Origin: Oscillospiraceae bacterium
GTDB taxonomy: Bacteria > Bacillota > Clostridia > Oscillospirales > Ruminococcaceae
Direction: 5' to 3'
NCBI GenBank assembly: GCA_017415165.1
Contig: JAFQIY010000041.1
Span: forward strand, 124,001-188,000
DNA length: 64,000 nt
The stretch's first letter is position 1. Each line of letters starts with the position of its first letter. Of this stretch, positions 566 through 64,000 are shown in pieces. Under the pieces are notes generated by a model. That model worked only from the letters and a program-made list of their open reading frames with translations. It made no database searches and was not told where the DNA came from. The position numbers and the translations under genes are program-made.

Positions 566-1116
566 TTTATCACTTCCTTAATCAATTTGCAGTTATAATC
601 AAGATAGTATGTATTACCAAGAAAATCACGGACAACTATTTCGTTTTCATTCATTTCAAAAGCATTTAAACCATCAATAGTAACAAATATATCCCTGCCC
701 ATAAATATATTAATCACGTTGAAATCATTATCAAGCTTTGCTATTTCCATTTCGCCATAAACTATATAACCATTTGAAACTTTATAAATGTCAAATGTAG
801 TTTTCGATAAATCATACATAACTTTACGAAATACGACTTCCATTTTATCAACATCGATTTTATAAATAATATTTTCACACATTATAACAAGAATATTATC
901 TACAAATAATACATTCTCAGGATAAGAATAATATCCGCAAATCAGAAGGGCTGATTTATCGTCCGTTATAATTGAAAAACTTTTATGATAATCATTCCAA
1001 TGACAATTTTCTGGATTAAGTATAACATCATAGCTATGAACATTGTCTGTTGAATTAAGAGAATAATCGGTATCTTCTGAAACTTCAATATAGAATGGTG
1101 CATTGGCTACTATCAT
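562..1116 (-). CDS. Hypothetical protein, 184 aa, coupled to rarA
   Basis: I do not recognise this protein. It has no signal peptide or membrane segment and reads like a beta-rich domain of repeated short strands (for example FVDNILVIMC, GYIVYGEME), suggestive of a beta-propeller or WG-repeat-like fold. I chose the ATG at 1116 because GGGAAGTG lies 6 bases upstream; the longer reading frame starting at 1182 would run through the glyA terminator hairpin. Its stop codon overlaps the rarA start by four bases, so the two genes are probably co-translated, but nothing in the sequence links it functionally to DNA repair. Confidence 0.65.
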   Translation of the reverse strand: MIVANAPFYIEVSEDTDYSLNSTDNVHSYDVILNPENCHWNDYHKSFSIITDDKSALLICGYYSYPENVLFVDNILVIMCENIIYKIDVDKMEVVFRKVMYDLSKTTFDIYKVSNGYIVYGEMEIAKLDNDFNVINIFMGRDIFVTIDGLNAFEMNENEIVVRDFLGNTYYLDYNCKLIKEVIK

Positions 1117-1137
1117 AATATCACTTCCCATAAATAA

Positions 1138-1172
1138 ACAAGGGCAAGAGACATAGCGCCTCTTGCCTCTGT
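1138..1172 (-). terminator. Intrinsic terminator of glyA
   Basis: Downstream of the glyA stop, read leftward, a perfect 8-bp stem GGCAAGAG / CTCTTGCC with a 9-base loop is followed by CTTGTTTATTT. The ribosome site of the next gene lies just after it. Confidence 0.7.
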
Positions 1173-1192
1173 TTTGCAACAATGTTATTCAA

Positions 1193-2449
1193 TTACTCAT
1201 AAAGAGGATACTTTGCACAGATTTCATTTACACCTGCACGGATTTCGTCAGCCTTGTTTTCAAAGTCTGTTGCGCAGAGGTAGATGTATTCTGCAATCTT
1301 GTCCATTTCTTCAACACCGAGACCTCTTGTTGTAACAGCTGGTGTACCAATTCTGATACCGCTTGTTACGAAAGGCTTTTCAGGGTCGTTGTGGATAGCG
1401 TTCTTGTTAACTGTGATATAAACCTCGTCAAGACGGTGTTCAAGTTCCTTACCTGTGATATTGAAAGGACGGAGGTCAACGAGCATAAGGTGGTTATCTG
1501 TACCGCCTGATACGAGGTTGAAGCCTCTCTTAAGGAGACCTTCAGCGAGTGCCTTAGCGTTCTCAACAACCTTCTTGCCGTATTCCTTGAACTCAGGCTT
1601 GAGAGCTTCACCGAAACAAACTGCCTTACCTGCGATTGTGTGCATAAGAGGACCGCCCTGTGTACCCGGGAAGATAGCGGAGTTAATCTTCTTTGCGAGT
1701 TCTTCGCTGTTTGTAAGGATAAGACCGCCTCTTGGACCACGGAGAGTCTTGTGAGTTGTTGTTGTTACGATATCAGCGTATGGCACTGGGGACTGGTGCT
1801 GACCTGCAGCAACAAGACCAGCGATATGAGCCATATCTACCATAAAGTAAGCACCTACAGACTTAGCAATCTGAGAAAGTCTTTCGAAGTCGATTGCTCT
1901 TGGGTATGCACTTGCACCTGCAACAATAAGCTTTGGCTTATTTTCTTCGGCAAGCTTCTGAACTGTATCGTAATTAATCATTTCTGTTTCGTCGTCAAGG
2001 CCGTAAGAAACGAAATTAAAGTATTTACCTGAGAGGTTTACAGGTGAACCGTGTGTAAGGTGTCCGCCGTCAGCAAGGCTCATACCGAGAACTGTATCGC
2101 CCGGCTGGAGAAGTGCAAAGTAAACAGCTGTGTTAGCCTGTGCACCTGAGTGAGCCTGAACGTTTGCAAAGTTTGCACCAAAAAGCTTCTTAGCACGCTC
2201 AATTGCGATGTTTTCAACGATATCAACGCACTCACATCCACCATAATAACGCTTTGCAGGGTAACCCTCAGCGTACTTATTTGTAAGAACAGAACCCATT
2301 GCAGCCATTACTGCAGGGGAAACGAGGTTTTCACTTGCGATAAGTTCGAGGTTGCGGCGCTGTCTTGCAAGCTCCTTCTTCATACCCTCGCCTACTTCGG
2401 GGTCAACTTCGGCAACGTAGCCGATTGTATCAATAATATCATTATACAT
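1193..2449 (-). CDS. glyA: Serine hydroxymethyltransferase
   Basis: PLP enzyme that interconverts serine and glycine while loading tetrahydrofolate with a one-carbon unit. The 418-residue length is normal for the family. Landmarks are [15 protein letters not shown] near residue 55, [13 protein letters not shown] near 200 and the PLP-lysine motif [14 protein letters not shown] near 230. AAAGGAG lies 9 bases before the ATG at 2449, and a promoter (TTGAAA-17-TATAAT) sits just upstream. It appears to be transcribed alone: a terminator follows it. Confidence 0.97.
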
Positions 2450-2580: not shown

Positions 2581-3036
2581 TTATTTCAGAACGTGCTTCC
2601 ACTTTCCATTTTCGATGTAATAGCGGAATTCGCTCAGGTTATCATCAAGAAAAACCTTCATCAAATCGTTCATATCGTTGGCAAGCTTCATTTGGGACAA
2701 CTCATTCAAGGCAATCCAGTAAACCTCTCCCTCCTCAGAGGATTTAAGTTCACCAGTGAACCTATTTGTTTTATACAGCAAAACCATATATCGTGAGCCG
2801 TCATCTTTTATCCAGTCCTTTATGCCGCAAAGCTGAGGGGAAGAAATTGTAAGACCTGTTTCCTCGAAAACTTCACGGATTACTGCGTCGGTAAAGGGCT
2901 CTCCTTTTTCCACGTGACCACCAGGGAATGTTATTCCGTTCCAGCTTTCGTCGTCGACTTTGTTCTGTATCAGGACTTTATCTCCATCGTAGACCATACA
3001 CATATTTGTTAATTTGACTGTTTCTGTTCGTGACAT
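2581..3036 (-). CDS. Nudix hydrolase (MutT-like)
   Basis: A 151-residue single-domain Nudix protein. The Nudix box is complete: G-G-H-V-E-K-G-E at residues ~39-46, then R-E-V-F-E-E-T-G-L at ~53-61, fitting G-x5-E-x7-R-E-U-x-E-E-x-G-U. These enzymes hydrolyse nucleoside diphosphates linked to another group; an N-terminal strand plus the W-x-F-P-G-G-H context resembles 8-oxo-dGTP/NTP-cleaning members, but the substrate cannot be read from sequence. It starts 14 bases after the upstream lipoprotein gene and shares its promoter. Confidence 0.9.
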   Translation of the reverse strand: MSRTETVKLTNMCMVYDGDKVLIQNKVDDESWNGITFPGGHVEKGEPFTDAVIREVFEETGLTISSPQLCGIKDWIKDDGSRYMVLLYKTNRFTGELKSSEEGEVYWIALNELSQMKLANDMNDLMKVFLDDNLSEFRYYIENGKWKHVLK

Positions 3037-3050
3037 TAAATCATTCCTTT

Positions 3051-3698
3051 TTAATACAAAAATATCGTTTCATTTGTAGTTGTGAATGGATCAATTTCAA
3101 AGTACAGATCAAATAATTCTTCTCCATATAAACTATCGCATATATTTTCAGATGATGCATATTTATACGCAATAAACGTAATTGTGTTGTTTAAATTATT
3201 TTTTCCATAAATTTCATAAGAAAATTTAGCTTCTCGTTGTATTTGCTGTGATATAAATTGACGGGATTTCATTGGACAGTTTTCGTCAATAAGTAATAAT
3301 AATTTATAGTATTCGATTAATTTATAAATATCAACCTCACCAGTGACATCCGCTTCACTGGTTTTTATTTTATTAGAAAGCCACTCACTGTCTTTATATC
3401 CTTTATAATATTCATCACTCACAAAGCTTTTCATTGCCCCGCTTTTTTCGATATAAAGAATCTCCGTAGTTTTTGTTTCGTAGTCATTATACACCCTCAT
3501 AGTAACAATATCAGGCATACTCTCCCAGATTGCCATTTCTTCTTCGGTCAGGTCTGTGGGAACGGTTGCGACAGTTGTTTCCGAAATTGTGGTTTCTTCA
3601 GGAATACTTTCTGTTTTTTCGCAGGCTGATAACAACGAAATACTGATTATTGCTGCCAAAATTGTTGAAAAAATACGCTGTATCTTTTTTCTAAACAT
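3051..3698 (-). CDS. Predicted lipoprotein, unknown function
   Basis: A 215-residue protein with a type II signal peptide: basic start (FRKKIQR), hydrophobic core and lipobox L-L-S-A-C with the cysteine at residue 26, followed by a Ser/Thr/Glu-rich linker. The remainder has no family that I recognise. A perfect consensus promoter and an AAGGGGG ribosome site lie directly upstream. Cotranscribed with the Nudix gene, though no functional link is visible. It is probably anchored to the outer face of the membrane. Confidence 0.75.
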   Translation of the reverse strand: MFRKKIQRIFSTILAAIISISLLSACEKTESIPEETTISETTVATVPTDLTEEEMAIWESMPDIVTMRVYNDYETKTTEILYIEKSGAMKSFVSDEYYKGYKDSEWLSNKIKTSEADVTGEVDIYKLIEYYKLLLLIDENCPMKSRQFISQQIQREAKFSYEIYGKNNLNNTITFIAYKYASSENICDSLYGEELFDLYFEIDPFTTTNETIFLY

Positions 3699-15739: not shown

Positions 15740-16030
15740 CAGGCAATAAAAAAAGCCTTCATCTCCTTGTAAGAGATGAAAGCTTGTAACTTCCACGGTA
15801 CCACTCTTGTTCAGACTTTCGTCTGCACCTCACCGCATCTCAATCATTCGATATCCAATGCGTATCTCTGTAACGGGAGAACCCGTTCCAACCTACTTAT
15901 CTGTGCACAAGATGTTCAGCGGACTGCTCAAGGACGAGTTATAACCGAAATTCTTTACTGCCTTTCACCTTACGGCAGCTCTCTGAAAAAGTCAATCGGC
16001 TTTTATTCCTATCAGCGCATTTGATTTATT
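15740..16030 (-). promoter_or_regulatory. T-box leader of leuA
   Basis: Read leftward from about 16030: stem I with the AGAGAG motif and a CTGCC/GGCAG distal hairpin, a likely specifier codon CUC (leucine; plus-strand 15936-15938) before GUCCUUGAG, the conserved T-box sequence AGAGTGGTACCGTGGAA (15808-15792), and a terminator GCTTTCATCTC / GAGATGAAGGC plus seven T (15787-15749). Uncharged tRNA-Leu should stabilise the antiterminator. The T-box class is certain; the exact specifier is inferred from alignment by eye and from the downstream gene. Confidence 0.92.
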
Positions 16031-39152: not shown

Positions 39153-42100
39153 TTAATTGTCTGTCGTTTTTTCAGCCTGCTTAACAGATATACTGAAACT
39201 TTCAACAAATTCACCGTCGGCATAAATGCTGTAGCAGTTGGTGTCTCCATACTTCATAAATGAATATCCATCCTGACTGCGTGAAATTATTTCTCCTGTT
39301 ATTTTCAAACTATTATTTATAAGCAAAAGCGGAACACCGCCTTCTGCCGCCTCACAGCTGAAACTACCGCCATTGATAATAAAGCTGTAACCGTAATATC
39401 CTACAAGTGCACCTGTTATCTTCACCACAGCATTGTCATTCATTACAACCTTTTCGCCGGGAATTGCCTTGGAATTTGCATTACCCTTTATTTCAAGAAC
39501 ACCATTATCAGATACAATTATCTCCGGATTGTGATCGTAGAAATCAAACGTTGAGCCGCGATAATTTGAAACAACAGCCCGTGCGTTGTCATTTATATGA
39601 AACGTATTTACATTCCTTATCGCAGCACCTAAATAGTTGCCATTATCATAAGGATTTCCCGTTGCAGTAAGAACACTGCTGTCATTAAGCTTTATATTTC
39701 TTGCCGCACAATGTTCAGCAGTGAAAGTTCCGTTTTCACACAAGATAAGTTCACCAAGCCTTATAGTTGTGCTATTCATTGATGCATTACCATTCACAGT
39801 TACGCTTTTATATGCTGATTCTTTTGTTTCCGTAACACTTACGCTGTCTTCAAAAGTTAAATACATCTCATTAAAAGAATCTATTGTTGTACAAAGCTTG
39901 TTTGTACTGTAAAGACTGCCATCGCCAAAAAAAGTAACTGAGTTGCCGGCTCTTATTGCGGCAGTAGCTATATTAAACTTATTTTCTCCTATTAGCTTTA
40001 TTCTTATAGAGTCTATTCCCTCAATATTAATGCCTATATGCTCTTTTCCCGTTCCGATTTCTACGTTGTTTAAAGTAAGTATATCATCCTCAAAAGTTAT
40101 GCCTTCAACAGGCTCGCCGTAAAGAATATCCTGTCCGCATACAGTTATGCTGATACCATCTGAATACTGAATCCTATCGCTTGCCCAAGGTAGCTCGACC
40201 TCATAACCGTTTGATTTCACAGGCTCTGCCCCTGCTTTTTCAACAGCCTGCTCCCACTTGTGCTTCTGTAGGAACGCTTCTGTTTCTTCCGAAATAAACT
40301 TTACATTCTCATCGGAAAAATTAACCGTACCGTCAAGACTGCTTCTTCCAAGCACAACAAGTTTTAAATTTTTCAGCATGCCAAGAGGTTCATAATAGCT
40401 GTTGTCCTGCTCGGCTTCGGGGAAAAGCCTGATACAGCTGAGATTACTGCACTTGCTGAGAAAATCAATATTTTCAAAATCACCGTCAAGGGTCACAACG
40501 CTTAAATTTTTAAGCTTTGCAACGCTTTCCGTATCTGTAAAGCTACCCTCATAGCAGGTGTGGAGCCGCAGCTCACAAAGCTTTTCAAGCTTTTCTATTC
40601 CTGCAAGAGAGGTGTTTTGATTTGTATATATTTCAAGACTTGTAAGGTCATTAAGCTTTTCCAGTTCTTCAAAGTCAACCACATCGCCGTCCGATACAAG
40701 TGTAACAGAAACGGCATTTTCAGTCGGATAATACAATTTGCCGTGTATCTCGATATAGTCAATTTCATTGACCGTGTACTCCTTAACCTCAATTTTATCC
40801 TTGCCGAGATAAAGGGACTCAGGCGGATTTTCTTCATCAAAGAATGGCTCCAGATTATATTCGGCAACAAGCTCAAAGCCGCTTATATACTCCTTTACAA
40901 CAGCATCTGCGTAAGTTTTCAGTTTTTCGTAAAGATTATCCTCGGTACAGCTGTCATATTCAATCGTGTACCTATCACCAATTGTATGTACAGTCTGAAA
41001 ATATAGCTTTCCGTCCTTTTCGTCATAAAATTCAAGCTGCTGACCGCCTATGTCAATACATCTCAGATTGTACCCTGTATACTCAATAGTATAAAACTTT
41101 ACGGGGTAATTCCTGTCCTCTCTGAATGCCGCAACAAAGTAAAATTCCCTGCCGTCCTTGTCTTTGAGATGATAAAGCTTTCTGTCGTATTCACCGAAAA
41201 AAATCTCGTCCTTGAAGCTGTCGCCATATACATATATTTTCTCGTGAGAGTTACTGCTGACAGAGTAAGCCGTGCCACAACCGTTATCTTTCAGAACAAG
41301 AATTTCATAAATCCCGTCAAAGCTCATATCAATGAAAGCTTTTTTCTTGTAACACTCCGAAACAGCTTCCATAAACTGCTCTTGTGTCTGTTCGGTATAG
41401 GTTATTTCACCGTATTTTCCCAGATGTACAACATAAGCAGGATTATATTTCGGAGTTGTAAGCCTGTATTCTCTAAAATCATTCGGCGGTCCCATAAAAT
41501 AATCTGCAAAATAGGTTATCGTTGTGGGAAAATGAATGTTTGTCACATCCTGCAGTGAGCATTTGCCAAGATATGTCACGCCCTCGGGAAGAACAAGCTT
41601 TGCCCCTGAACAACCCGTAAATGCACGCTCTTCAAGTCTTTTCAGCTTTGATGGGAAGGTTACATTCTCAAGATTATAGCATAATTCAAAACAATTTTCC
41701 GATATTACAGTAAGCCCATCAGGAAGCTTTACCTCCGTGCAATCACATCTGCAAAAAGCATAGGGCTCTATGCTTGTCACGCTGTTGGGTAAAATTACAG
41801 ACATTATTCCCGTAAAAGCAAAAGCTTCCTCACATATTGTTTCAAGCCCATCTGAAAATTCAACTTCGGTAAGATTTTCACAGCTGCAAAAAGCTCTGTT
41901 TCGTATAACCTTCACGGATGACGGTATAACAACCTTTGTAATATCTGTTCTGTCCTCAAACGCACTTCTGCCTATTTCCGTTACTCCATCAGGAATTATC
42001 ATTTCTCCCGTGCCTTTGTAGCCTGTTAAAATACAACTGCCGTCTTCCGTTGTTTTATATTCAAAATCCTCAGGAATATCAATATTTTCCGCATTAACCG

Positions 42101-42158
42101 TAAACGTTAGAAAAACACAGCACAAAATCGCTACAATAATACATATTGTCTTTCTCAT
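39153..42158 (-). CDS. Secreted BspA-type leucine-rich-repeat protein
   Basis: 1001 residues. Signal peptide 1-~23 (ICIIVAILCCVFLTFTVNA) without lipobox. Residues ~50-220 hold seven or so LRR_5 (BspA/TpLRR) repeats with I-P-x-x-V-x-x-I-x-x-x-A-F (e.g. IPDGVTEIGRSAF, IPSSVKVIRNRAF, LPNSVTSIEPYAF). A second, classical LRR stretch appears near 480-620 (LEKLNDLTSLEIYTNQ, LKNLSVVTLDG), and the C-terminal third is a parallel-beta-helix-like region (VTVNGNASMNSTTIRLGELILCENGTFTA). Such proteins bind host or microbial surfaces. Middle gene of a three-gene leftward cluster. Confidence 0.82.
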   Translation of the reverse strand: MRKTICIIVAILCCVFLTFTVNAENIDIPEDFEYKTTEDGSCILTGYKGTGEMIIPDGVTEIGRSAFEDRTDITKVVIPSSVKVIRNRAFCSCENLTEVEFSDGLETICEEAFAFTGIMSVILPNSVTSIEPYAFCRCDCTEVKLPDGLTVISENCFELCYNLENVTFPSKLKRLEERAFTGCSGAKLVLPEGVTYLGKCSLQDVTNIHFPTTITYFADYFMGPPNDFREYRLTTPKYNPAYVVHLGKYGEITYTEQTQEQFMEAVSECYKKKAFIDMSFDGIYEILVLKDNGCGTAYSVSSNSHEKIYVYGDSFKDEIFFGEYDRKLYHLKDKDGREFYFVAAFREDRNYPVKFYTIEYTGYNLRCIDIGGQQLEFYDEKDGKLYFQTVHTIGDRYTIEYDSCTEDNLYEKLKTYADAVVKEYISGFELVAEYNLEPFFDEENPPESLYLGKDKIEVKEYTVNEIDYIEIHGKLYYPTENAVSVTLVSDGDVVDFEELEKLNDLTSLEIYTNQNTSLAGIEKLEKLCELRLHTCYEGSFTDTESVAKLKNLSVVTLDGDFENIDFLSKCSNLSCIRLFPEAEQDNSYYEPLGMLKNLKLVVLGRSSLDGTVNFSDENVKFISEETEAFLQKHKWEQAVEKAGAEPVKSNGYEVELPWASDRIQYSDGISITVCGQDILYGEPVEGITFEDDILTLNNVEIGTGKEHIGINIEGIDSIRIKLIGENKFNIATAAIRAGNSVTFFGDGSLYSTNKLCTTIDSFNEMYLTFEDSVSVTETKESAYKSVTVNGNASMNSTTIRLGELILCENGTFTAEHCAARNIKLNDSSVLTATGNPYDNGNYLGAAIRNVNTFHINDNARAVVSNYRGSTFDFYDHNPEIIVSDNGVLEIKGNANSKAIPGEKVVMNDNAVVKITGALVGYYGYSFIINGGSFSCEAAEGGVPLLLINNSLKITGEIISRSQDGYSFMKYGDTNCYSIYADGEFVESFSISVKQAEKTTDN

Positions 42159-42182
42159 AATCTGCTCATTCCCTTCAATGCG

Positions 42183-44165
42183 TTATATTTTGTAACGTAT
42201 TACTGTCAAATCAGGCATATTTTCTTTAAGCCACTGCTCCTGCTCTGCGGTAATAGACCTTTCCCAGCAGTTTACAAGCAGAAATTCAAGGCTGTCCATT
42301 TCTTTAAGCACCTTGAAGAAATCGTCAGGCTTGTCCAGTGTGTCACGGAATTCCAGAATTCTTACCCCGTCCATTCCGCTGAGAAAATCATAATTTTCCG
42401 CACCGCTTACATACAGACGGATAATTCCATCCATTTCCGAAAGCACTGAAAGGTCAGAAATACCGTTTGCCGTAAGTTCTCTTAAATTTGTAAGCTTTTC
42501 AATTCCTTCAATAGAACGTTCTTCCTCTGAATTATTATGTATATTAAGATATACAATGCCCTCTTCCGCAAGCCTTTCAAGGTTCTCCTTGTTTATCTGT
42601 TCATTCTCCAGATAATGACATCCTTTACTGTGTCTGAAATAATCATTATCACCCGTTTCGCCGTATTTCTCCTCATATTCAGCCTTGGTCATCAAATTCG
42701 TTTCATTGGGATAATCGGGAATTTCACCGATAGTAATGCTGAATTTATGTCCCTCCGCTGTTTCCTTGGCAAGCTCGTTAAGGTCATATGCCCCCGTAAG
42801 CTCATATTCGGAAAAAGCCTCCGCAAATACTTCTTCGTTGCTTATAGAAGCATCTTTATAGATGAATTTTCCGTTTACAACTCCGTAGTAAAGCTGTTCG
42901 TCATTTTCTCCGTAATAAAATCCTGTACATTCACCCAAATAACAAAATGCTATCTCATCTTTGAGGGGTATTATTGCATAGTACGCTTCCCCATATCCTA
43001 CTTCGAAGGGGTAAGATGTTACATAAAAATAACAATCATTTTCGCTGTCATAAAATTCATAAAGCATTGAATTGCCATAAAAATCACAGTTCCAGCTGTC
43101 ATTGCTGCCAAATTGACGAAACTCCACATAGCCGTAATCGCATTCAAAAAACTCGGGAATACCATCCTTGTTCATATCAATATAAACACGCCATCTGGTG
43201 CCTTCTGACGGCTTTGGTATCGTCCTTCCAGCCTTTTGCAGACGTGTTTCCCCTATATACTCGGGATAATATTGCTCAAGTCCGTCAATATAGCTGTATG
43301 CATAAACAGGACAATCATTGTTGATAACTGTCCTGCCAACCTCGGTCACAGTTGCGGGAATACGCAGTTCCTCAATCTGCGTGTTCTGAAAAGCATAGTT
43401 GCCAATCTTCTCAAGACCGTTATTGAGTTTCAGGCTTATGAGTCCGCTTGTTGAAAAAGCATTTTCACCGATTTCCGTGAGGCTGAATAGCATTTCTATA
43501 GCAAGCAGATTTTTGCACCCTGCAAAAGCGTACTTTCCCATACGCTTCAGATTGTTTGAAAAAACAACCTCTTTCATCTTTCCATTATGGCAGGCATACT
43601 CACCTATAACCTCAACCTCATCGGGAATTATAACCTTTTCAATTCCCATTGGCACAAGAATAAGCTTTTTCATATCCTTGCTGAAAAGCATACCATCCTT
43701 TGACGTGAAAAGACTGCTGTCTGAAATTTCGATTTCCTTAAACGAGGGAAGCTGACCGAAGTTATGCGTTTCAATGGTTTCTGTTGATGATGGCAATGTG
43801 ATTTTTTCAAGCTTTTCGGCACCGCCTAATCCCTTCACAACCGTAACGCTTTCGGGGAATACAACCTCCCTGACGGCTGAGCCTTTGAAAGCATCCTTGC
43901 TTACGGCTGTAACGGGTAGTCCCTCTATCTCGTCGGGAATTTTTACAATGTCATCCTTGCCTGTGTACGCTGTAACTGTAACATTGTCATTGAGGATTGT
44001 ATATGTAAAATCCACTGTGATTTCCTTTTCCTCGAAAACAGCAGCCGACGCTGTTGTTGCTGAAGATACGCTTTCGCTGCTTGCTGCCTCCCCTTCGCTT
44101 TTATTCTCCGTACACGCGGTAAGAAGCACCGCCGCAGCCATAAGAACAAGCAATTTCTTTCTCAT
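42183..44165 (-). CDS. BspA-type leucine-rich-repeat lipoprotein
   Basis: 660 residues. Lipobox L-L-T-A-C at residues ~14-18, then an Ala/Ser/Glu linker. LRR_5 repeats run ~55-300 (IPDEIEGLPVTAVSKDAFKGS, IPDEVEVIGEYACHNG, IPATVTEVGRTVI). An acidic, Tyr-rich middle follows, and the C terminus has classical LRRs (IEKLTNLRELTANGISDLSVLSEM). Shares design with the next gene and starts the cluster. AGGGGTG precedes the ATG; promoter at 44197-44225. Probable surface adhesin or glycan-sensing protein; ligand unknown. Confidence 0.82.
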   Translation of the reverse strand: MRKKLLVLMAAAVLLTACTENKSEGEAASSESVSSATTASAAVFEEKEITVDFTYTILNDNVTVTAYTGKDDIVKIPDEIEGLPVTAVSKDAFKGSAVREVVFPESVTVVKGLGGAEKLEKITLPSSTETIETHNFGQLPSFKEIEISDSSLFTSKDGMLFSKDMKKLILVPMGIEKVIIPDEVEVIGEYACHNGKMKEVVFSNNLKRMGKYAFAGCKNLLAIEMLFSLTEIGENAFSTSGLISLKLNNGLEKIGNYAFQNTQIEELRIPATVTEVGRTVINNDCPVYAYSYIDGLEQYYPEYIGETRLQKAGRTIPKPSEGTRWRVYIDMNKDGIPEFFECDYGYVEFRQFGSNDSWNCDFYGNSMLYEFYDSENDCYFYVTSYPFEVGYGEAYYAIIPLKDEIAFCYLGECTGFYYGENDEQLYYGVVNGKFIYKDASISNEEVFAEAFSEYELTGAYDLNELAKETAEGHKFSITIGEIPDYPNETNLMTKAEYEEKYGETGDNDYFRHSKGCHYLENEQINKENLERLAEEGIVYLNIHNNSEEERSIEGIEKLTNLRELTANGISDLSVLSEMDGIIRLYVSGAENYDFLSGMDGVRILEFRDTLDKPDDFFKVLKEMDSLEFLLVNCWERSITAEQEQWLKENMPDLTVIRYKI

Positions 44166-44539: not shown

Positions 44540-44956
44540 TTATTTAAAGAACTTTTCCCATATTTCATAAGACGGTGCGCATACACCTTTACGCCAATTT
44601 TTGACAGTAGTGTCGCTCACTCCACATTTTTGAGCAAATTTACGGATTGAAACATTGTTTCTTTCCATATATTCACATACAAAATGAGAAGATTCCATCT
44701 TAAATTTATGGTAATCAGTCAAAAGGTCAATTCCCAGCACATCTGAAAGTTTTTTCAGCGTTTCGATACACTTGTATTGCTCCTCAATCTCCTCACGCTC
44801 GTACTTGATATAATTATCATAGCTTAAGCCTGTAAGTCGGGTTATATCGGCAATACTAAGACCTTTTTCTATTCTTGCTTTCGCAAGTTGGGTAAGTCCA
44901 GAATTACTTTTTCCAGCTTTCCTCAACTGCAACAGCACAAGCAACAGTAGCACCAA
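44540..44956 (-). CDS. Double XRE-type helix-turn-helix protein, 5' end unclear
   Basis: Two Cro/C1-type HTH domains: LTQLAKARIEKGLSIADITRLTGLSYDNYIKYE (first) and FVCEYMERNNVSIRKFAQKCGVSDTTVKNWRKG (second). A DNA-binding regulator. The 5' end is odd: the frame can only open at a TTG/GTG-rich Leu/Val stretch without a ribosome site, while a 28-codon ORF starting at ATG 44990 overlaps it in another frame and ends at an AAAAAG run just before the HTH. The gene may be frameshifted there or truncated by insertion of the neighbouring element. Followed by a strong terminator. Confidence 0.6.
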   Translation of the reverse strand: MVLLLLVLLQLRKAGKSNSGLTQLAKARIEKGLSIADITRLTGLSYDNYIKYEREEIEEQYKCIETLKKLSDVLGIDLLTDYHKFKMESSHFVCEYMERNNVSIRKFAQKCGVSDTTVKNWRKGVCAPSYEIWEKFFK

Positions 44957-45124
44957 CCATTGGGTTGTTACCCATATTTTTATACGTCATTTTATTTAGT
45001 TTTATTGTAATTCCCTTTTATTTACAATCACTTGCAAATAACGTAAATAAGCCATTTACTCAATCAACATATACCTAATTGTCATTTATTGGTATTTATA
45101 AAAACATAGTATAATTCATATTTG

Positions 45125-45159: not shown

Positions 45160-46374
45160 TCAAAACAAATTCTTGATTATATCATCACCTTGATTAAGTA
45201 ATTTTTCTGTTAGATGATGATAAACCTGCATAGTTACTTGAATGTTTTTATGTCCTAATCTTTCTTGTGTGTACTTAGGACTTGCACCTGCTTCAAGCAA
45301 CATAGAACAATGCGTATGACGTAATGAATGATAGTCAAATTCAGGATAATTAAGCTGATTATGTATTATCTGTGATGTATGCTGTAATGTACGGGGTTGA
45401 ATAAATTGCCCTGAATCTCTTACATTAATCAAATGTATTTCATTACCATCACATTCTGTATTTAATACCCTTTTATGTTCACTTTCAAAAAGATGTGTAT
45501 AAAATTCAGCATAAAATGTTTTTGCACGTTCACTTTTTTCATAAGTACGTTTAAGAAGTTCAAGTAATTCATCATCAATTGTAATAGTTCTGAATGAATC
45601 ATATTTAGGATTTGTAAAAAAATAATACCCAGCAGTTTCAGTATTATCTTTTTCATGCCATTGAACTTGACGATTTACTGAAAGTGTCTTGTTTTCAAAA
45701 TCAATATCCTCCCAAGTCAAAGCAAATGTTTCACCTAATCTTAATCCGCATTTATACCCTATCATTAAAGCCAAATGTGTTGATGTTCCTTCAGGAAATC
45801 TTTTGAATATCTCATTCATCTTGTCTTTAGGAATATAGACATGAGGTGCTGACCTTGTAGGATTATCAGCAACAACTCTTTTAGAAGGTAATTTAACATA
45901 TACCATTGGATTACTGTCTATGTATTTCAAAGGCTCTACAGCATAGCCTAATGAGTTTGATAAAATACCTTTAAGAACAGAAAGTGTGTTCCTGCTATAT
46001 CCATCATTAAATTTATCTGTTATGAATTGTTGCAATACAGCAGATGTAAGTGCTTTTATTTTATACTGACCAAGTGCAGGTTTTATATGTAATCTTATTT
46101 TCTTATTATAATTCGTTATTGTAGCAGGTTTAAGATTTGTTTTGCAATATGTTTCTATCCAATAATCAAGGTAATCAGCGAAACTTGATTCTGACGGTAC
46201 AAAGAATGTACCACCTTGATTATATTGTGATAATGCTTTTGCTCCAGCTTCAAGTGCTTCTTTTTTGGTCTTAAACCCACTTTTACTAAATTGTTGTCGT
46301 TTACCGTTTATTTTAGCACCTTCAAATCGGTACTCCCATTTAGTACCTCTTTTTCTTGCTGCTAAATCAGCCAT
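45160..46374 (-). CDS. Tyrosine recombinase/integrase of Tn916-Int/phage type
   Basis: 404 residues. N-terminal arm-binding AP2-like domain (KRGTKWEYRFEGAKINGKRQQFSKSGFKTKKEALEA), SAM-like core-binding domain ~65-165 and catalytic domain with R in CGLRLGETFAL, H-x-x-R in YHSLRHTHCSML, H/W-position H in LGHKNIQVTMQVYHH, where the final Y of VYHH is the nucleophile. Complete. AGGAGG precedes the ATG. It marks the left end of an integrated element whose remaining genes lie to its right; the target gene is not identified. Confidence 0.95.
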   Translation of the reverse strand: MADLAARKRGTKWEYRFEGAKINGKRQQFSKSGFKTKKEALEAGAKALSQYNQGGTFFVPSESSFADYLDYWIETYCKTNLKPATITNYNKKIRLHIKPALGQYKIKALTSAVLQQFITDKFNDGYSRNTLSVLKGILSNSLGYAVEPLKYIDSNPMVYVKLPSKRVVADNPTRSAPHVYIPKDKMNEIFKRFPEGTSTHLALMIGYKCGLRLGETFALTWEDIDFENKTLSVNRQVQWHEKDNTETAGYYFFTNPKYDSFRTITIDDELLELLKRTYEKSERAKTFYAEFYTHLFESEHKRVLNTECDGNEIHLINVRDSGQFIQPRTLQHTSQIIHNQLNYPEFDYHSLRHTHCSMLLEAGASPKYTQERLGHKNIQVTMQVYHHLTEKLLNQGDDIIKNLF

Positions 46375-59959: not shown

Positions 59960-60023
59960 ATATAGTACACATAATAATGTACTTATAATTCAATTAAGAT
60001 AAAAAAATGCTTATAAATAATTA

Positions 60024-61610
60024 TTAGGAAGCTATTTTATATACATTATAAGTTCTTCCATTGAGATTAGTATTTCTTTCAATAGCGATAATTCCAGCTT
60101 TATTAAGCCTTTGAATATATCTGCTTATGTTACCTTCATCCATTTTCAAATCTTTTGCAAGAGTTGCGTAAGTAACATCTCTATTGAGTTGTAAATTTCG
60201 TGCAAGACACAAATAAACTAAGTATTCCTGCTTATTTATGAGTTTATTTATTAAACAAAGTGTTGCAAAATATGAATATCGAGTATATCCAGCACCATAA
60301 TTTGCAATCTCGGTCTTTAAGTAAATTTTTTTAGTGTCATTATATGTGATATAGTTTCTCTCCAACAGGTCATTAAGATATTTTGTTAATGTATCTCTTG
60401 TAATACAACATTTCTTTGTCGTAGTGTTTGTTAATTTCTCCACTAAACGCTTTCTTGACAAACCCTTACTGTTAAAATCAAGTACGCTTATAATCATATA
60501 ATGATAACCATTAAGCTTTTGAATTACCTTATCTTTAAGCTGGTTATTATCCATCATCAGTTCCTCACTTTTAACATTTCCTGTTTGCTTCTCTACGGTT
60601 CTACATAATGTTCTATCACAAAATCTATTTATAGTTTGCTGGTCACGTTCATTCGGAACAGTACAACCTAAAAGCTTGTATTTTCCATTCCAATATGCTT
60701 TAAAGTCCTGTTCTACAATTTCAGGTGGTTTAGGTGGTTGACATCTCAAATTCCACTCGTGGACTTTTCTTAACGCATTATATTCTGTGTATGCCTTTAT
60801 ATCTCTTAAATAATTTGTGATACGTCCTAAAGCAAAATTACGCTCACCCTCTCGCACACCTTCAGCAATCATAGCTTCAATGCAATAGTACGAGGATTCT
60901 GTTGTAAATTCTGAAGGAGGTATTCTTTGCACCTGCTCCCAAAATACTTTATTGTATTTTTTCTGCTCAATTAATGCTTCTATTTTAAGCAGATTATACG
61001 GTTTAAATCTCTCAGGATTACTTTCAAAATTGTTAGCTACAATCGCAACAACCTTTTGATTTTCCTTATTCTTCAAATTAATGCTTGTAGGGATTCTCGC
61101 AATTTGTGTAATCAAGGTTGCTTTCAAATCAGCACCAAGAATTTCCCCTAATTCATGATTTACTGTTGTCATACGCTCATTATTTTTATATCTCTTTGTA
61201 GCAATATAATAGTGATAACCGTGTCCAGTATCAACAATCATATGGTTAAACAGTGTTTTTATTCTGCTCTTGATATGTGTTGAAAAATCCGTAACGTCAG
61301 TATATTCAGGATAATCCTTTCTGTCAAAATCAAGCATCAACACTTTTCTTTTGTACATATGAGAAGCTTCTCCTGATTGACCTTTAGTTGTTGCAAGTCC
61401 TATATAAATATGGTAATTGTACTTATATTTCTTGATAAATTCCTCAATTTCTGATTTATGTTTGAAGAATTTCTGCAAGGAAATATCCTCGTTTTCAGCC
61501 TTAATTGCAACTATTCTTACAAATTCGTTATCTTCAAGGCTGAAATCGTCTGTTTCTTCGTCAAAATCAAACAGCACCTTTAAATAATTGTCTAAACTAA
61601 ATCTTGCCAT
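60024..61610 (-). CDS. Replication protein: AEP-type primase with PriCT and C-terminal winged helices
   Basis: 528 residues. Archaeo-eukaryotic primase core ~60-200: metal motif VLMLDFDRKDY (D-x-D), then VDTGHGYHYYIA (the G-x-H nucleotide-binding motif). A PriCT-like helical part ~265-325 (GERNFALGRITNYLRDIKAY ... WNLRCQPPKPPEI). Two winged-helix segments follow (KGLSRKRLVEKLTNT; YATLAKDLKMDEGNISRYIQRLNKAGII). Such proteins start replication of plasmids and phage-plasmids. Iteron-like repeats and a hairpin flank it. SD GGGGAAG is about 15 bases from the ATG, a weak fit. Confidence 0.82.
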   Translation of the reverse strand: MARFSLDNYLKVLFDFDEETDDFSLEDNEFVRIVAIKAENEDISLQKFFKHKSEIEEFIKKYKYNYHIYIGLATTKGQSGEASHMYKRKVLMLDFDRKDYPEYTDVTDFSTHIKSRIKTLFNHMIVDTGHGYHYYIATKRYKNNERMTTVNHELGEILGADLKATLITQIARIPTSINLKNKENQKVVAIVANNFESNPERFKPYNLLKIEALIEQKKYNKVFWEQVQRIPPSEFTTESSYYCIEAMIAEGVREGERNFALGRITNYLRDIKAYTEYNALRKVHEWNLRCQPPKPPEIVEQDFKAYWNGKYKLLGCTVPNERDQQTINRFCDRTLCRTVEKQTGNVKSEELMMDNNQLKDKVIQKLNGYHYMIISVLDFNSKGLSRKRLVEKLTNTTTKKCCITRDTLTKYLNDLLERNYITYNDTKKIYLKTEIANYGAGYTRYSYFATLCLINKLINKQEYLVYLCLARNLQLNRDVTYATLAKDLKMDEGNISRYIQRLNKAGIIAIERNTNLNGRTYNVYKIAS

Positions 61611-61666
61611 CTATATTATTCATCTTCCCCTTCATAATTTTTCGTTCTACACTATATTTTAATTAG

Positions 61667-61966
61667 TTATATATCTTTTTCATTATGCGAAATCAACTCG
61701 CTCAACTTGTCAAACACTGCATTTTTAACTCTCTTATCAGCCTTTGTAGCACAAATGAGCATTTCACATATATACTCTCTGATACAGTGTGTCAATGGAG
61801 CATAGTTGTGAATGTCAAGTAAGCCCTTGATTTTTGATTCTCGCTTTGGAAGATGACTAACAAAATCCTCAAAATAATGACGATCATAATGTTCATCAAT
61901 TACCTCATAAAGTGCGTGTGCCAGTACAGCGTTTTCTGAAATAGTTACATTAATTGTGTTTGACAT
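61667..61966 (-). CDS. Hypothetical small protein
   Basis: 99 residues, helical and acidic/His-rich (HALYEVIDEHYDRHYFEDFVSHL ... CIREYICEMLICATKADKRVKN). AAGGAGA is well placed before the ATG. Second gene of the replication operon; no family recognised. Confidence 0.65.
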   Translation of the reverse strand: MSNTINVTISENAVLAHALYEVIDEHYDRHYFEDFVSHLPKRESKIKGLLDIHNYAPLTHCIREYICEMLICATKADKRVKNAVFDKLSELISHNEKDI

Positions 61967-61986
61967 AATAAAAATCTCCTTTTAAA

Positions 61987-62187
61987 TTACTTTTTGTTCT
62001 TTGCCATATAGTCCATATACATTTTGCCGATTTCAACAGATGTTGTATTGAAACGTTGAGCAAGCTTATCAGCTTTGGCTCTAAGTATAGGTAAGCCCTC
62101 ATCTAAAGGGACATCCTTTAATTCCAGTTCAACCTCTTTAGCCATCTGTTCAATTGCATTTTCGATAAGATATTTTGAATACGCCAT
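61987..62187 (-). CDS. Hypothetical small protein, first gene of the replication operon
   Basis: 66 residues, two or three helices (YLIENAIEQMAKEVELELKDV ... AKADKLAQRFNTTSVEIGKMYMDYM). AAAGGA precedes the ATG. Its mRNA has a leader of about 400 nt carrying two terminator-like hairpins and an antisense RNA region, so it is the gene nearest to that control. Confidence 0.65.
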   Translation of the reverse strand: MAYSKYLIENAIEQMAKEVELELKDVPLDEGLPILRAKADKLAQRFNTTSVEIGKMYMDYMAKNKK

Positions 62188-62251
62188 AATTCTAATCCTT
62201 TCATTTATATAAATCCGCTAATCTCACTTACGGGATATTCTCTGTTAATGT

Positions 62252-62310
62252 AAAAAGTCAGGGCATATCTCTACATTGGACTTCTCCTTTCCATAGAGTC
62301 ACACCCTGAC
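62252..62310 (-). promoter_or_regulatory. Second leader hairpin with ribosome site and AUG-UAG in its top
   Basis: In leftward RNA: GUCAGGG (62310-62304) pairs with CCCUGAC (62263-62257), inner CUCUA/UAGAG and UGGA/UCCA stems, then UUUUU. The apical loop holds AAGGAG, and AUG followed at once by UAG lies at 62276-62271. Confidence 0.6.
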
Positions 62311-62325
62311 ATAACAATTGAAATT

Positions 62326-62388
62326 AAAAAAGGTGACACTGAATAAACCATATCCATACAGATATAGCTTGTCCATCGTCACCTTGAC
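62326..62388 (-). promoter_or_regulatory. Leader terminator and competing antiterminator of the replication operon
   Basis: Leftward RNA: AAGGUGAC (62385-62378) pairs with GUCACCUU (62337-62330), with an inner AUAUC/GAUAU stem, followed by a run of U: an intrinsic terminator. Its 5' arm is also part of GUCAAGGUG (62388-62380), which pairs perfectly with CACCUUGAC at 62442-62434, an antiterminator. Confidence 0.7.
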
Positions 62389-62412
62389 AATCGATTTCGC
62401 TTGTGGTATAAT
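62384..62412 (+). promoter_or_regulatory. Consensus promoter of the antisense RNA
   Basis: TTGACA (62384-62389), 17 bases, TATAAT (62407-62412); both hexamers perfect. No ORF follows on this strand. Confidence 0.82.
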
Positions 62413-62418
62413 CTAATG

Positions 62419-62580
62419 GAATAAGATTACATCGTCAAGGTGTGGTCTATTCACTTTATACATAGTTCTTGATTTTTTACCAGAAAATCAAGGACAATTT
62501 TTAATGTGTGGGCAACAATAGCTCACAATCCATATTTACCAAGCCTCTTTAATGTTACCAGCATTAAGGAGGCATTTTTT
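62419..62580 (+). ncRNA. Predicted antisense RNA to the replication-operon leader (about 160 nt)
   Basis: From the expected start of the consensus promoter (about 62419) to an intrinsic terminator: GCCTCTTTAATG (62543-62554) / CATTAAGGAGGC (62562-62573), one G-U pair, then six T. Two more hairpins: CTTGATTTT/AAAATCAAG (62468-62492) and TGTGGGC/GCTCACA (62507-62527). It contains no open frame. It is fully complementary to the leftward leader and includes the complement of the antiterminator strand at 62434-62442. Confidence 0.75.
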
Positions 62581-62600
62581 CCTTTTGGTAGTATACTAAC

Positions 62601-62637
62601 ATTATACATATTAGCACTCTCAATGTCAATGTGCTAA
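62601..62637 (-). promoter_or_regulatory. Early leftward promoter with overlapping operator
   Basis: Read leftward: TTGACA (62629-62624), 17 bases, TATAAT (62606-62601), both perfect. Inverted repeat TTAGCAC (62611-62617) / GTGCTAA (62631-62637) covers the spacer and -35, as a repressor operator would. Expected transcription start about 62594. Confidence 0.82.
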
Positions 62638-62687
62638 TTATACAAAAAAATCAAATTTAATTTTATTAAATTCAACTTATTTGAATG

Positions 62688-62716
62688 TTGACATTTTGAT
62701 TTGTTTGTGTTATAAT
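62688..62716 (+). promoter_or_regulatory. Promoter of the repressor gene
   Basis: TTGACA (62688-62693), 17 bases, TATAAT (62711-62716); both perfect. Divergent from the early leftward promoter. Confidence 0.88.
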
Positions 62717-62747
62717 ATATACACGATACGAGGAGTGTATATATTAT
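62712..62747 (+). promoter_or_regulatory. 13-bp inverted repeat enclosing the repressor ribosome site
   Basis: ATAATATATACAC (62712-62724) and GTGTATATATTAT (62735-62747) are exact inverted copies. The 10-base centre holds GAGGA of the ribosome site; the right arm includes the first two bases of the start codon and the left arm overlaps the -10 element. Confidence 0.75.
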
Positions 62748-63474
62748 GTCTTTATTTAATCAACGATTCAAGGAATTAAAAGAAGAAAAAGGTGTTATGC
62801 TAAAAGACCTTGCTGCTGCACTTGATTATACCAGTTCTAAATTATCATACTATCTTAATAGTAATAACGCTGAACCACCTTATGACACATTGATAAAAAT
62901 AGCTGAATATTTTAATGTATCAACGGATTATCTGTTAGGCATTTCAAATTTCAGAAATACTGACCAAGAGATTTCAGCAAGACTAATATCAGAAAGCGGA
63001 AACTCTTCGTGCGATGAAGTTAATATCACATTGGTAGATTTTTCGCATATCTTCAATGAATTATATATTAATCAAGAAGTACATAATCTTTTAGGTTCAT
63101 TTGATAGGATAACATTGCTACGTGAAGTTTTAGATTCATATTTAAATTTTTGTGAGTATGTTGTATGTAATACGACTAAATATAATAAACACAATACAGA
63201 TGAAAAAATGATTAATAACATTATCGATTCTGGATATGAAACAATTTATTATCTCAATGCATTTAGCAATGACATCATTGACGAAATATATGAAAATATA
63301 GATAAAATATATAACAATCCACAAACAGCTACAGTAATAAAAAATAAATTAAAAAAGCATATTAATTTTGAGATATTTCCTTCCAAAGAAACTAAAAATA
63401 ATGTATCATATATATTACAATCATATCTATTAAAAAAATCAAAAATGGACATCAAAATCGAAAAATATAAATAA
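62746..63474 (+). CDS. XRE-family repressor (CI-like)
   Basis: 242 residues. N-terminal XRE HTH (FNQRFKELKEEKGVMLKDLAAALDYTSSKLSYYLNSN, then PPYDTLIKIAEYFNVSTDYLLG) and a long helical C-terminal part of unknown type, without the LexA-like Ser/Lys protease motif, so induction would not be by RecA-stimulated self-cleavage. GAGGAG lies about 10 bases before the ATG. It is divergent from the replication operon and very probably represses the early leftward promoter and its own. AT-rich coding. Confidence 0.85.
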   Translation: MSLFNQRFKELKEEKGVMLKDLAAALDYTSSKLSYYLNSNNAEPPYDTLIKIAEYFNVSTDYLLGISNFRNTDQEISARLISESGNSSCDEVNITLVDFSHIFNELYINQEVHNLLGSFDRITLLREVLDSYLNFCEYVVCNTTKYNKHNTDEKMINNIIDSGYETIYYLNAFSNDIIDEIYENIDKIYNNPQTATVIKNKLKKHINFEIFPSKETKNNVSYILQSYLLKKSKMDIKIEKYK

Positions 63475-64000
63475 CTTCTCATATTTCTCCATCTCCAAAG
63501 CAAAATAACCATAAATCCAGCACTCTATTTTCACTCTACAAATTATCTTCTGAAGCACTCACATCTCCAAATTAAAAGAAATACTCTTTTGTATTTCAGC
63601 TAAAAATCCACCTGCTCAAAATCATTATAAATAGTATAGCTGTAATCAAATTTGAATGGGATATTTGCCATTCTTCTGCGTTGTTGGTAAAGTTAGCAGG
63701 TAAAATCTAAAGCACCTGAAATGCCATTCAGATTCGTTAATTTCGATATGATTTGTGAGTGTCCGTTGTGGACACACAAAATCAGCCGTCCGAATTTCGG
63801 ACACTTGGTTTTACAACAATTACTTCCTGTTTTAAGTAGTCATTTACAGTAGCATTTTTATTGCTGCGAATTAATCTCTCTTTATAAAAATAGTTTATAT
63901 TTATACATTGGTCATTCCGTACCCCTAGGGTACTAACCAAATCAATTTTTCGTGTTTGAATAGTACCCCAAGGGTACATAAAGTTGTTTAACGTTTTTGT
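63475..64000. other. Gene-free right end with palindromes
   Basis: No convincing gene. Four short palindromes: GTGTCC-GTTGT-GGACAC (63759-63775), GTCCGAA-T-TTCGGAC (63788-63802) and two copies of GTACCCC(T/A)AGGGTAC (63919-63933, 63963-63977). Possibly operators or origin parts of genes outside the window. Confidence 0.5.
63919..63977. repeat. Twin 15-base palindromes
   Basis: GTACCCCTAGGGTAC at 63919-63933 and GTACCCCAAGGGTAC at 63963-63977 differ in one base; start-to-start distance is 44 bases, about four helical turns. Confidence 0.7.

Follow-up and report, generated by a model that had tools for sequence, protein, structure and literature searches.

Antisense transcription attenuation is an established mode of control in a few Gram-positive plasmids. 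In pIP501 and the Inc18 group (RNAIII, CopR, repR) the antisense RNA favours a terminator in the long rep leader, and in pT181 the antisense RNAI acts on the leader of the initiator (repC) mRNA and attenuates its transcription, as described in PMC5703833. In the stretch of DNA analysed here (64 kb, hereafter the window, situated on a 290-kb contig in a draft genome of 2.6 Mb) a plasmid-type replicon carried by an integrated, phage-like element seems to be under this kind of control, the attenuator being stacked behind an apparent host heat-shock operator and before a second, possibly ribosome-linked terminator. Judging from the sequence, the best explanation, in which we have considerable confidence, is an antisense-RNA attenuator on the early operon of an integrated 30.4-kb element with a plasmid-type initiator (Table 1); in our best reading, the host HrcA would gate the promoter and the antisense RNA would limit read-through by copy number.

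Table 1. Features of the leader, its operon and the surrounding element (positions in the window; L003 is the related leader discussed in the text)
Feature	Position	Strand	Value or basis
Left element end, 48-bp direct repeat	44929-44976	.	other copy outside window
Tyrosine integrase of the element, near left end	45160-46374	-	PF00589, phrog_1
Replication initiator, 528 aa, pCD6 RepA relative	60024-61610	-	25.8% identity over 99%, E 9e-16
Second operon ORF, 99 aa, no family match	61667-61966	-	
First operon ORF, 66 aa, no family match	61987-62187	-	
Conserved 38-nt block after T2 (ACAGAGA..CCGTAAGTGA..TA.CGG)	62214-62251	-	sequence comparison with L003
Second terminator T2, tiered hairpin with U-run	62252-62310	-	z -2.70; L003 z -4.63
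AAAGGAG ribosome site with start-stop AUG-UAG, in T2 tip	62271-62290	-	
Strand C, 3' half of terminator T1, GUCACCUU, then U-run	62330-62337	-	
Strand B, common to antiterminator and terminator; carries, on the opposite strand, most of the antisense promoter -35	62378-62388	-	
Antisense promoter TTGACA-17-TATAAT, TG before -10	62384-62412	+	12/12
Predicted antisense RNA, ~160 nt, four stem-loops	62419-62580	+	fold z -8.52
Strand A, 5' half of antiterminator, CACCUUGAC	62434-62442	-	sequence, folding
Sense hairpin II, loop with UGGUA; second terminator-like hairpin	62465-62495	-	folding
Sense hairpin I, loop with UGGUA; on + strand, antisense RNA terminator	62543-62573	-	folding
Early leftward promoter TTGACA-17-TATAAT, predicted start ~62594	62601-62629	-	12/12
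CIRCE-type (HrcA) candidate operator TTAGCACatTGACATTGAGAGTGCTAA, overlapping early promoter -35 and spacer	62611-62637	-	16/18 arm positions
Divergent HTH repressor, 242 aa	62746-63474	+	HTH_19, phrog_8

The element is bounded by perfect 48-bp direct repeats, the right copy of which (window-equivalent 75245-75292) is situated inside a GGGtGRT gene. Besides the integrase, it encodes a tape-measure-like protein, an AAA ATPase, an HNH nuclease, Fic, Uma2, a GmrSD-type protein, a resolvase, a Schlafen AlbA protein, the replication operon and the HTH repressor. Among the element proteins scanned (a subset of its ORFs) the integrase and the tape-measure-like protein were found, and no head genes (terminase, portal, capsid). 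The first-pass annotation had described the leader as lying beside an integrase; the two do belong to the same element, at a distance of about 16 kb from each other. Between the repressor promoter and start codon there is an inverted repeat, TATATACAC-N10-GTGTATATA (62716-62743), without a counterpart in the relative L003, which is possibly the operator of the element's repressor. A dense hairpin cluster (L087 13015-13240, window-equivalent 75015-75240; fold z -7.43) adjoins the element's right end on its inner side, and two large BspA-type leucine-rich-repeat proteins are encoded just outside its left end (39153-44165). In the Rfam scan of the window the gathering score was reached only by a distant T-box leader on the minus strand (15769-16024; RF00230, 103 bits), and each of the two leaders, that of the window and that of L003, gave one weak match below it.

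The leader had been proposed to control a primase-type replication gene. A distant, full-length relative of pCD6 RepA is indeed encoded downstream, with the genes for the 66- and 99-aa proteins in between. In this initiator D94, D96, H133 and R172 are invariant across the five aligned sequences, and we take these residues to resemble archaeo-eukaryotic primase motifs. Searching with it by tblastn (E ≤0.01) yielded 14 of 72,556 plasmid records and none of 50,697 phage records; ten of the 14 score the same as pCD6, and one of them was taken. Matches to PHROGs were weak and partial (best phrog_3123, E 1.6e-5), in a PDB profile search no hit had an E value under 0.08, most being regulator DNA-binding domains, and the PriCT_1 (RepR) family was not matched in Pfam at E ≤0.01 or in NCBIfam at E ≤1. 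A peptide pattern derived from the initiator had no match in viral contigs and, in 297 family genomes, was found in its own genome only.

Perfect consensus promoters are five in the 64 kb, three of them within 62384-62716. The early and the antisense promoters face each other ~190 bp apart, and both retain 12 of 12 consensus positions in L003, where the spacer of the antisense promoter is 18 nt; the rightward consensus promoter named in the first-pass annotation is thus real as a sequence in both loci, and the leader, put there at ~400 nt from ~62594, is ~407 nt long when counted from this predicted start as far as the first ATG (62187). As for the early promoter, it is overlapped by a candidate CIRCE site, of which the first-pass annotation made no mention. 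CIRCE, the site of HrcA, has the form TTAGCACTC-N9-GAGTGCTAA (PMC3842655). In the candidate site the right arm matches at 9 of 9 positions and the left one at 7 of 9, with a spacing of exactly 9; in both relatives the left arm departs from CIRCE at two positions, and these mismatches fit the overlap with the promoter -35. The sequence hallmarks of the HrcA/CIRCE regulon, i.e. CIRCE on the promoter and HrcA in the genome, are therefore found together here, with 16 of 18 arm positions matching. The HrcA gene (PF01628) is present in the same genome, which contains six CIRCE sites at ≤3 mismatches (five perfect ones, including those before hrcA, groES-groEL and htpG, and the early-promoter site with two mismatches) against one match of the reversed control pattern; the number of CIRCE-like sites expected by chance in 64 kb is 0.03. 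At ≤2 mismatches, sites occur in 21 of 21 genus genomes, 90 in all, and the reversed control gives 1 match. In L003 the candidate site is identical at 26 of 27 bases and the CIRCE-promoter block at 34 of 37, as compared with 421 of 580 when all aligned bases are counted. The CIRCE-plus-promoter pattern (≤2 mismatches) was found among 396 family genomes only in G000 and G010, the latter being the source of L003, and its strict version had no match in viral contigs.

These counts against the control, the conservation in L003 and the restriction of the pattern to G000 and G010 make control of the early promoter by the host HrcA likely. Since that promoter overlaps a CIRCE-type site, HrcA should repress the operon, and would do so until proteotoxic stress. 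A 27-bp palindrome with two arm mismatches, adjoined by a divergent HTH repressor gene, could also serve the element's own repressor as its binding site, in which case it would merely resemble CIRCE; we consider this rather unlikely in view of the complete right arm with the left one at 7 of 9, the exact spacing, the single match of the reversed control in the 21 genomes, and the excess of conserved bases in L003 over the aligned stretch as a whole.

In viral contigs, CIRCE-like sites were found at no fewer than 120 loci (at least 120), at least 27 of which hold relatives of GroES, GroEL or HtpG. Promoter-like matches overlap such sites in at least 18 cases, one of them being L003; of the 18 listed, at least seven precede hsp20-like genes and at least two ClpB-like genes, as read from translations. 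In L091 (upstream of 842-1342, minus strand) and L150 (upstream of 2870-3406, plus strand), the CIRCE sites match at 17 of 18 arm positions and overlap promoter-like sites (10 of 12); they precede phage terminase small subunits (phrog_51 and phrog_606, respectively), with another ORF in between in L091. Two of the perfect CIRCE sites of the window's own genome (L013 and L014, ~1501) are followed by a near-identical stretch of ~100 bp; judging from translations, one of them is near an smpB-like ORF and the other near a recombinase-like ORF.

The leader itself contains three strands capable of two mutually exclusive pairings. Strand B pairs with A through GUCAAGGUG (62388-62380; 9 bp) and with C through AAGGUGAC (62385-62378; 8 bp), and the positions previously assigned to the three strands and the U-run all agreed with the sequence. 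A scan of both strands of the window for such an arrangement (9-bp pairing, overlapping 8-bp stem, T-run) returned the leader as the only place, and the same scan of 30 dinucleotide-preserving shuffles returned none. The two folds are nearly equal, with -70.1 for the antiterminator and -69.3 for the terminator in the window, and -70.0 and -70.6, respectively, in L003. According to folding, A:B has a probability of 0.97 (window) or 0.95 (L003) before strand C is made, and the terminator reaches 0.97 in both once the antisense-covered part is masked; by this measure, both earlier suggestions, that the A:B pairing is the alternative to the B:C terminator and that antisense binding should free the latter, are upheld. 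At equilibrium the free full leader of the window has A:B at 0.70 and B:C at 0.50. That of L003 prefers the terminator (B:C 0.88 vs A:B 0.17), hence the antiterminated state there must be kinetic. Kinetic action is usual for attenuators, and we infer that the switch works in this way here.

The operation of the leader could be envisaged as follows. Leftward transcription from ~62594 would yield strand A and then strand B; these would pair first, keeping B off C, and RNA polymerase would pass T1. The ~160-nt RNA transcribed rightward from ~62419, from the consensus promoter inside the A-B loop, would pair with the leader including strand A, whereupon B would pair with C and transcription would stop at T1. 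The antisense RNA would rise with copy number, and replication would thereby limit itself. That this leader is subject to antisense-RNA transcription attenuation seems to us probable.

The one relative of the leader beyond short matches was revealed by BLAST of 21 genus genomes in G010, a member of the same genus (L003; 74% over 373 nt). Its strands A, B and C are UACCUUGAC, GUCAAGGUAUCAG and CUGAUACCUU. One G of strand B is replaced by A in L003, and this is matched by C to U changes in both A and C; the next A-U pair of B:C has become U-A. Double-changed pairs in the two alternative stems number three, with one change compensated in both partners. Under a simple uniform model with strands changing independently, which is not a phylogenetic test, an unconstrained simulation at 26% change per site kept both stems in 0.15% of runs, and kept them with at least three double changes in 0.003%. 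The first-pass annotation had stated beforehand that failure of homologues to conserve or compensate the two stems would refute it; in L003, the sole homologue found, both stems are kept, with compensation. The genes that follow the leader are different in L003, encoding proteins of 189 and 230 aa without a Pfam match, the latter with a PHROG of unknown function; rep was not found in its genome, and the L003 contig ends ~3.6 kb after the start of the 189-aa gene.

The known members are two, both in one genus. In the BLAST of the 21 genomes seven gave matches, the own genome included, and apart from the latter and one place in G010 these were only 25-40 nt long, one of them (L005) being a perfect CIRCE. 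With the L003 leader as query, BLAST of 396 family genomes returned G000 and G010 only. The antiterminator plus antisense -10 pattern was found in 70 contigs, 17 of them viral and 53 from genomes. L056, on the same contig as L003, is alone among these in having both the terminator strand and CIRCE; a loose 6-7-bp terminator test was also passed by L057, L059 and L063, which have no CIRCE. A covariance model matched G000 and G429 among 394 order genomes, G010 being unlisted and presumably not drawn; G429 (34.9 bits) was counted as noise, because its 3-kb locus has no CIRCE (best 7 mismatches) and a score of 42 bits is reached by unrelated hairpins close to the element's right end. Against phages the L003 leader had no BLAST match, and the region 60000-64000 had two, each of 59 bp and in repressor genes. 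The window leader had no DNA match in plasmids, the conserved-block pattern none in viral contigs, and L213, a single relative from another search, was judged to be a chance match in GC-rich DNA.

The predicted antisense RNA folds at -56.7 kcal/mol, and the matching stretch of L003 at -49.6 kcal/mol (z -8.31) with the same layout. The z-scores of the sense strand of these stretches are -1.57 in the window and -2.38 in L003, and as those of the antisense strand are far lower in both cases, it seems to be the antisense strand on which the structure is conserved. When the antisense helices are mirrored on the sense strand, 41 of 49 and 38 of 43 of their pairs are kept, but at -24.6 and -27.5 kcal/mol only. 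Hairpin I shows a U-A to C-G pair change in L003, where it has a 9-nt loop and is followed by ATTTTTTTACC. Hairpin II is followed by a T-run in the window and by none in L003; it was rejected as the antisense terminator for this reason, which leaves hairpin I as the kept one. A simple terminator scan of L003 listed none, because its maximum loop was 8 nt. The strong rightward terminator expected at 62543-62580 is therefore recognizable as a hairpin with a T-run, kept in L003, and the anticipated ~160-nt RNA complementary to the leader, strand A included, has a predicted counterpart with a conserved fold. Two large loops of this RNA repeat UUACCA; the sense loops of hairpins I and II hold UGGUA in both relatives, with YUNR in the window and only UNR in L003. 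In pIP501 the U-turn loop of the target RNA matters, according to PMC7430163.

Rightward transcription might instead act mainly by interference (polymerase collision or promoter occupancy), T1 being an ordinary leaky terminator. Two facing promoters of perfect consensus at such a short distance would suit this mode of action; it leaves unexplained, however, the kept A:B pairing, the compensated change running through three strands and the strong antisense fold in both relatives, and we regard it as improbable. Nor do we see much likelihood of a mainly trans-acting or protein-binding role for the antisense RNA, with its overlap with the leader as a secondary matter: a very stable fold with UUACCA repeated in its two large loops might be expected of such a molecule, but strand A is among the parts that this RNA covers, the predicted switch flips once that strand is masked, and the substitutions in all three strands (A, B and C) are in keeping with the switch. 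That a protein of the element or of the host, and not the antisense RNA, controls T1, as the repeated UGGUAA motifs and the conserved downstream block might suggest, is scarcely credible given that the antisense promoter and fold are kept and cover strand A. Antisense attenuation is thus the reading we retain.

A transcript that has passed T1 would meet T2, a terminator absent from the first-pass annotation, which would have to be opened too. The inner shape of T2 is the same in the window and L003; 41 of 57 bases are identical in a gapped alignment, and in the 7-bp inner stem both bases differ in three of the seven pairs and a single base in one. The equivalent place of L003 holds AAAGGA and AUG-UAA. 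The simplest reading is that T2 would be opened by a ribosome initiating at this AUG-stop, a suggestion that we make only tentatively. Over 62258-62215, a span that takes in most of the conserved block, 36 of 44 bases are identical to L003.

As to the replicons with related initiators, the three-strand terminator switch upstream of rep was not found in the five plasmid relatives examined; folding points to a translational counterpart in two of them. The leader of a Paraclostridium sordellii plasmid (L220, 2070-2310) can form either an upstream pairing or a hairpin that covers the ribosome site, and the probability of this hairpin climbs from 0.52 to 1.00 on masking of the part that an antisense RNA would cover. 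Also present are a terminator and two sites resembling an antisense promoter (11 of 12), and the corresponding RNA folds at z -3.12. In pCD6 (L217, 1716-1995) the ribosome-site hairpin rises from 0.44 to 0.98 on masking; the antisense promoter-like site of this leader is weaker (10 of 12), and an antisense terminator was not found in it. These two plasmids may use a translational form of the antisense switch, and, as a lead, antisense switching may be common to the family of pCD6-type initiators.

If the proposed scheme is true, the mobile element would sense host protein damage directly via HrcA, instead of DNA damage, and would limit its own copy number by RNA, its replication being tied to host stress. 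We give about an even chance to the broader view that the replicon of the element is under HrcA stress control, with the attenuator and the start-stop terminator setting the reach of transcription, and that mobile elements make wider use of CIRCE for sensing stress; the sites in viral contigs suggest, weakly, that other phages also use it.

Like the locus described here, pIP501 and its Inc18 relatives have an antisense promoter midway in a long leader and an adjoining HTH repressor gene (PMC5703833). The differences are the other initiator family, the integrated element, the CIRCE-like site on the early promoter and T2; moreover, the Inc18 terminator stands directly before rep, whereas here the 66- and 99-aa ORFs separate the two. 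With an initiator of a different family and a terminator that stands elsewhere, the locus is not an Inc18 member. The pT181 system resembles it in having an antisense RNA on the initiator leader (PMC5703833), but that RNA is of 87 nt and its initiator, RepC, is of the Rep_trans type, as opposed to a predicted RNA of ~160 nt and a pCD6-type Rep. Of the pT181/pIP501 logic invoked at the outset, the locus shows an antisense promoter and terminator running counter to the leader and, by folding, mutually exclusive structures, the terminator being favoured on masking. The pCD6-type replicons share a full-length relative of the initiator; in their five examined representatives the three-strand switch was not found, two of them perhaps hiding the ribosome site instead. 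Among the matches listed for open-licence PMC papers, we found no report of antisense transcription attenuation in an integrated element or of CIRCE on the early promoter of a prophage or element. The Lactobacillus plantarum (L. plantarum) prophage P2a was rejected as a precedent, its two genes listed in the relevant part of PMC3842655 being under CtsR, not HrcA; in pneumococcus, removal of a phage-related island lowers HrcA-regulon transcripts, i.e., the influence described in PMC10602874 has the opposite direction. With the HrcA/CIRCE regulon the locus shares a 27-bp site on a promoter and the presence of HrcA in the genome; the target there is a chaperone gene, and here it would be the early operon of a mobile element, with two arm mismatches in the site. 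New here are the integrated-element setting, the CIRCE-type promoter and T2.
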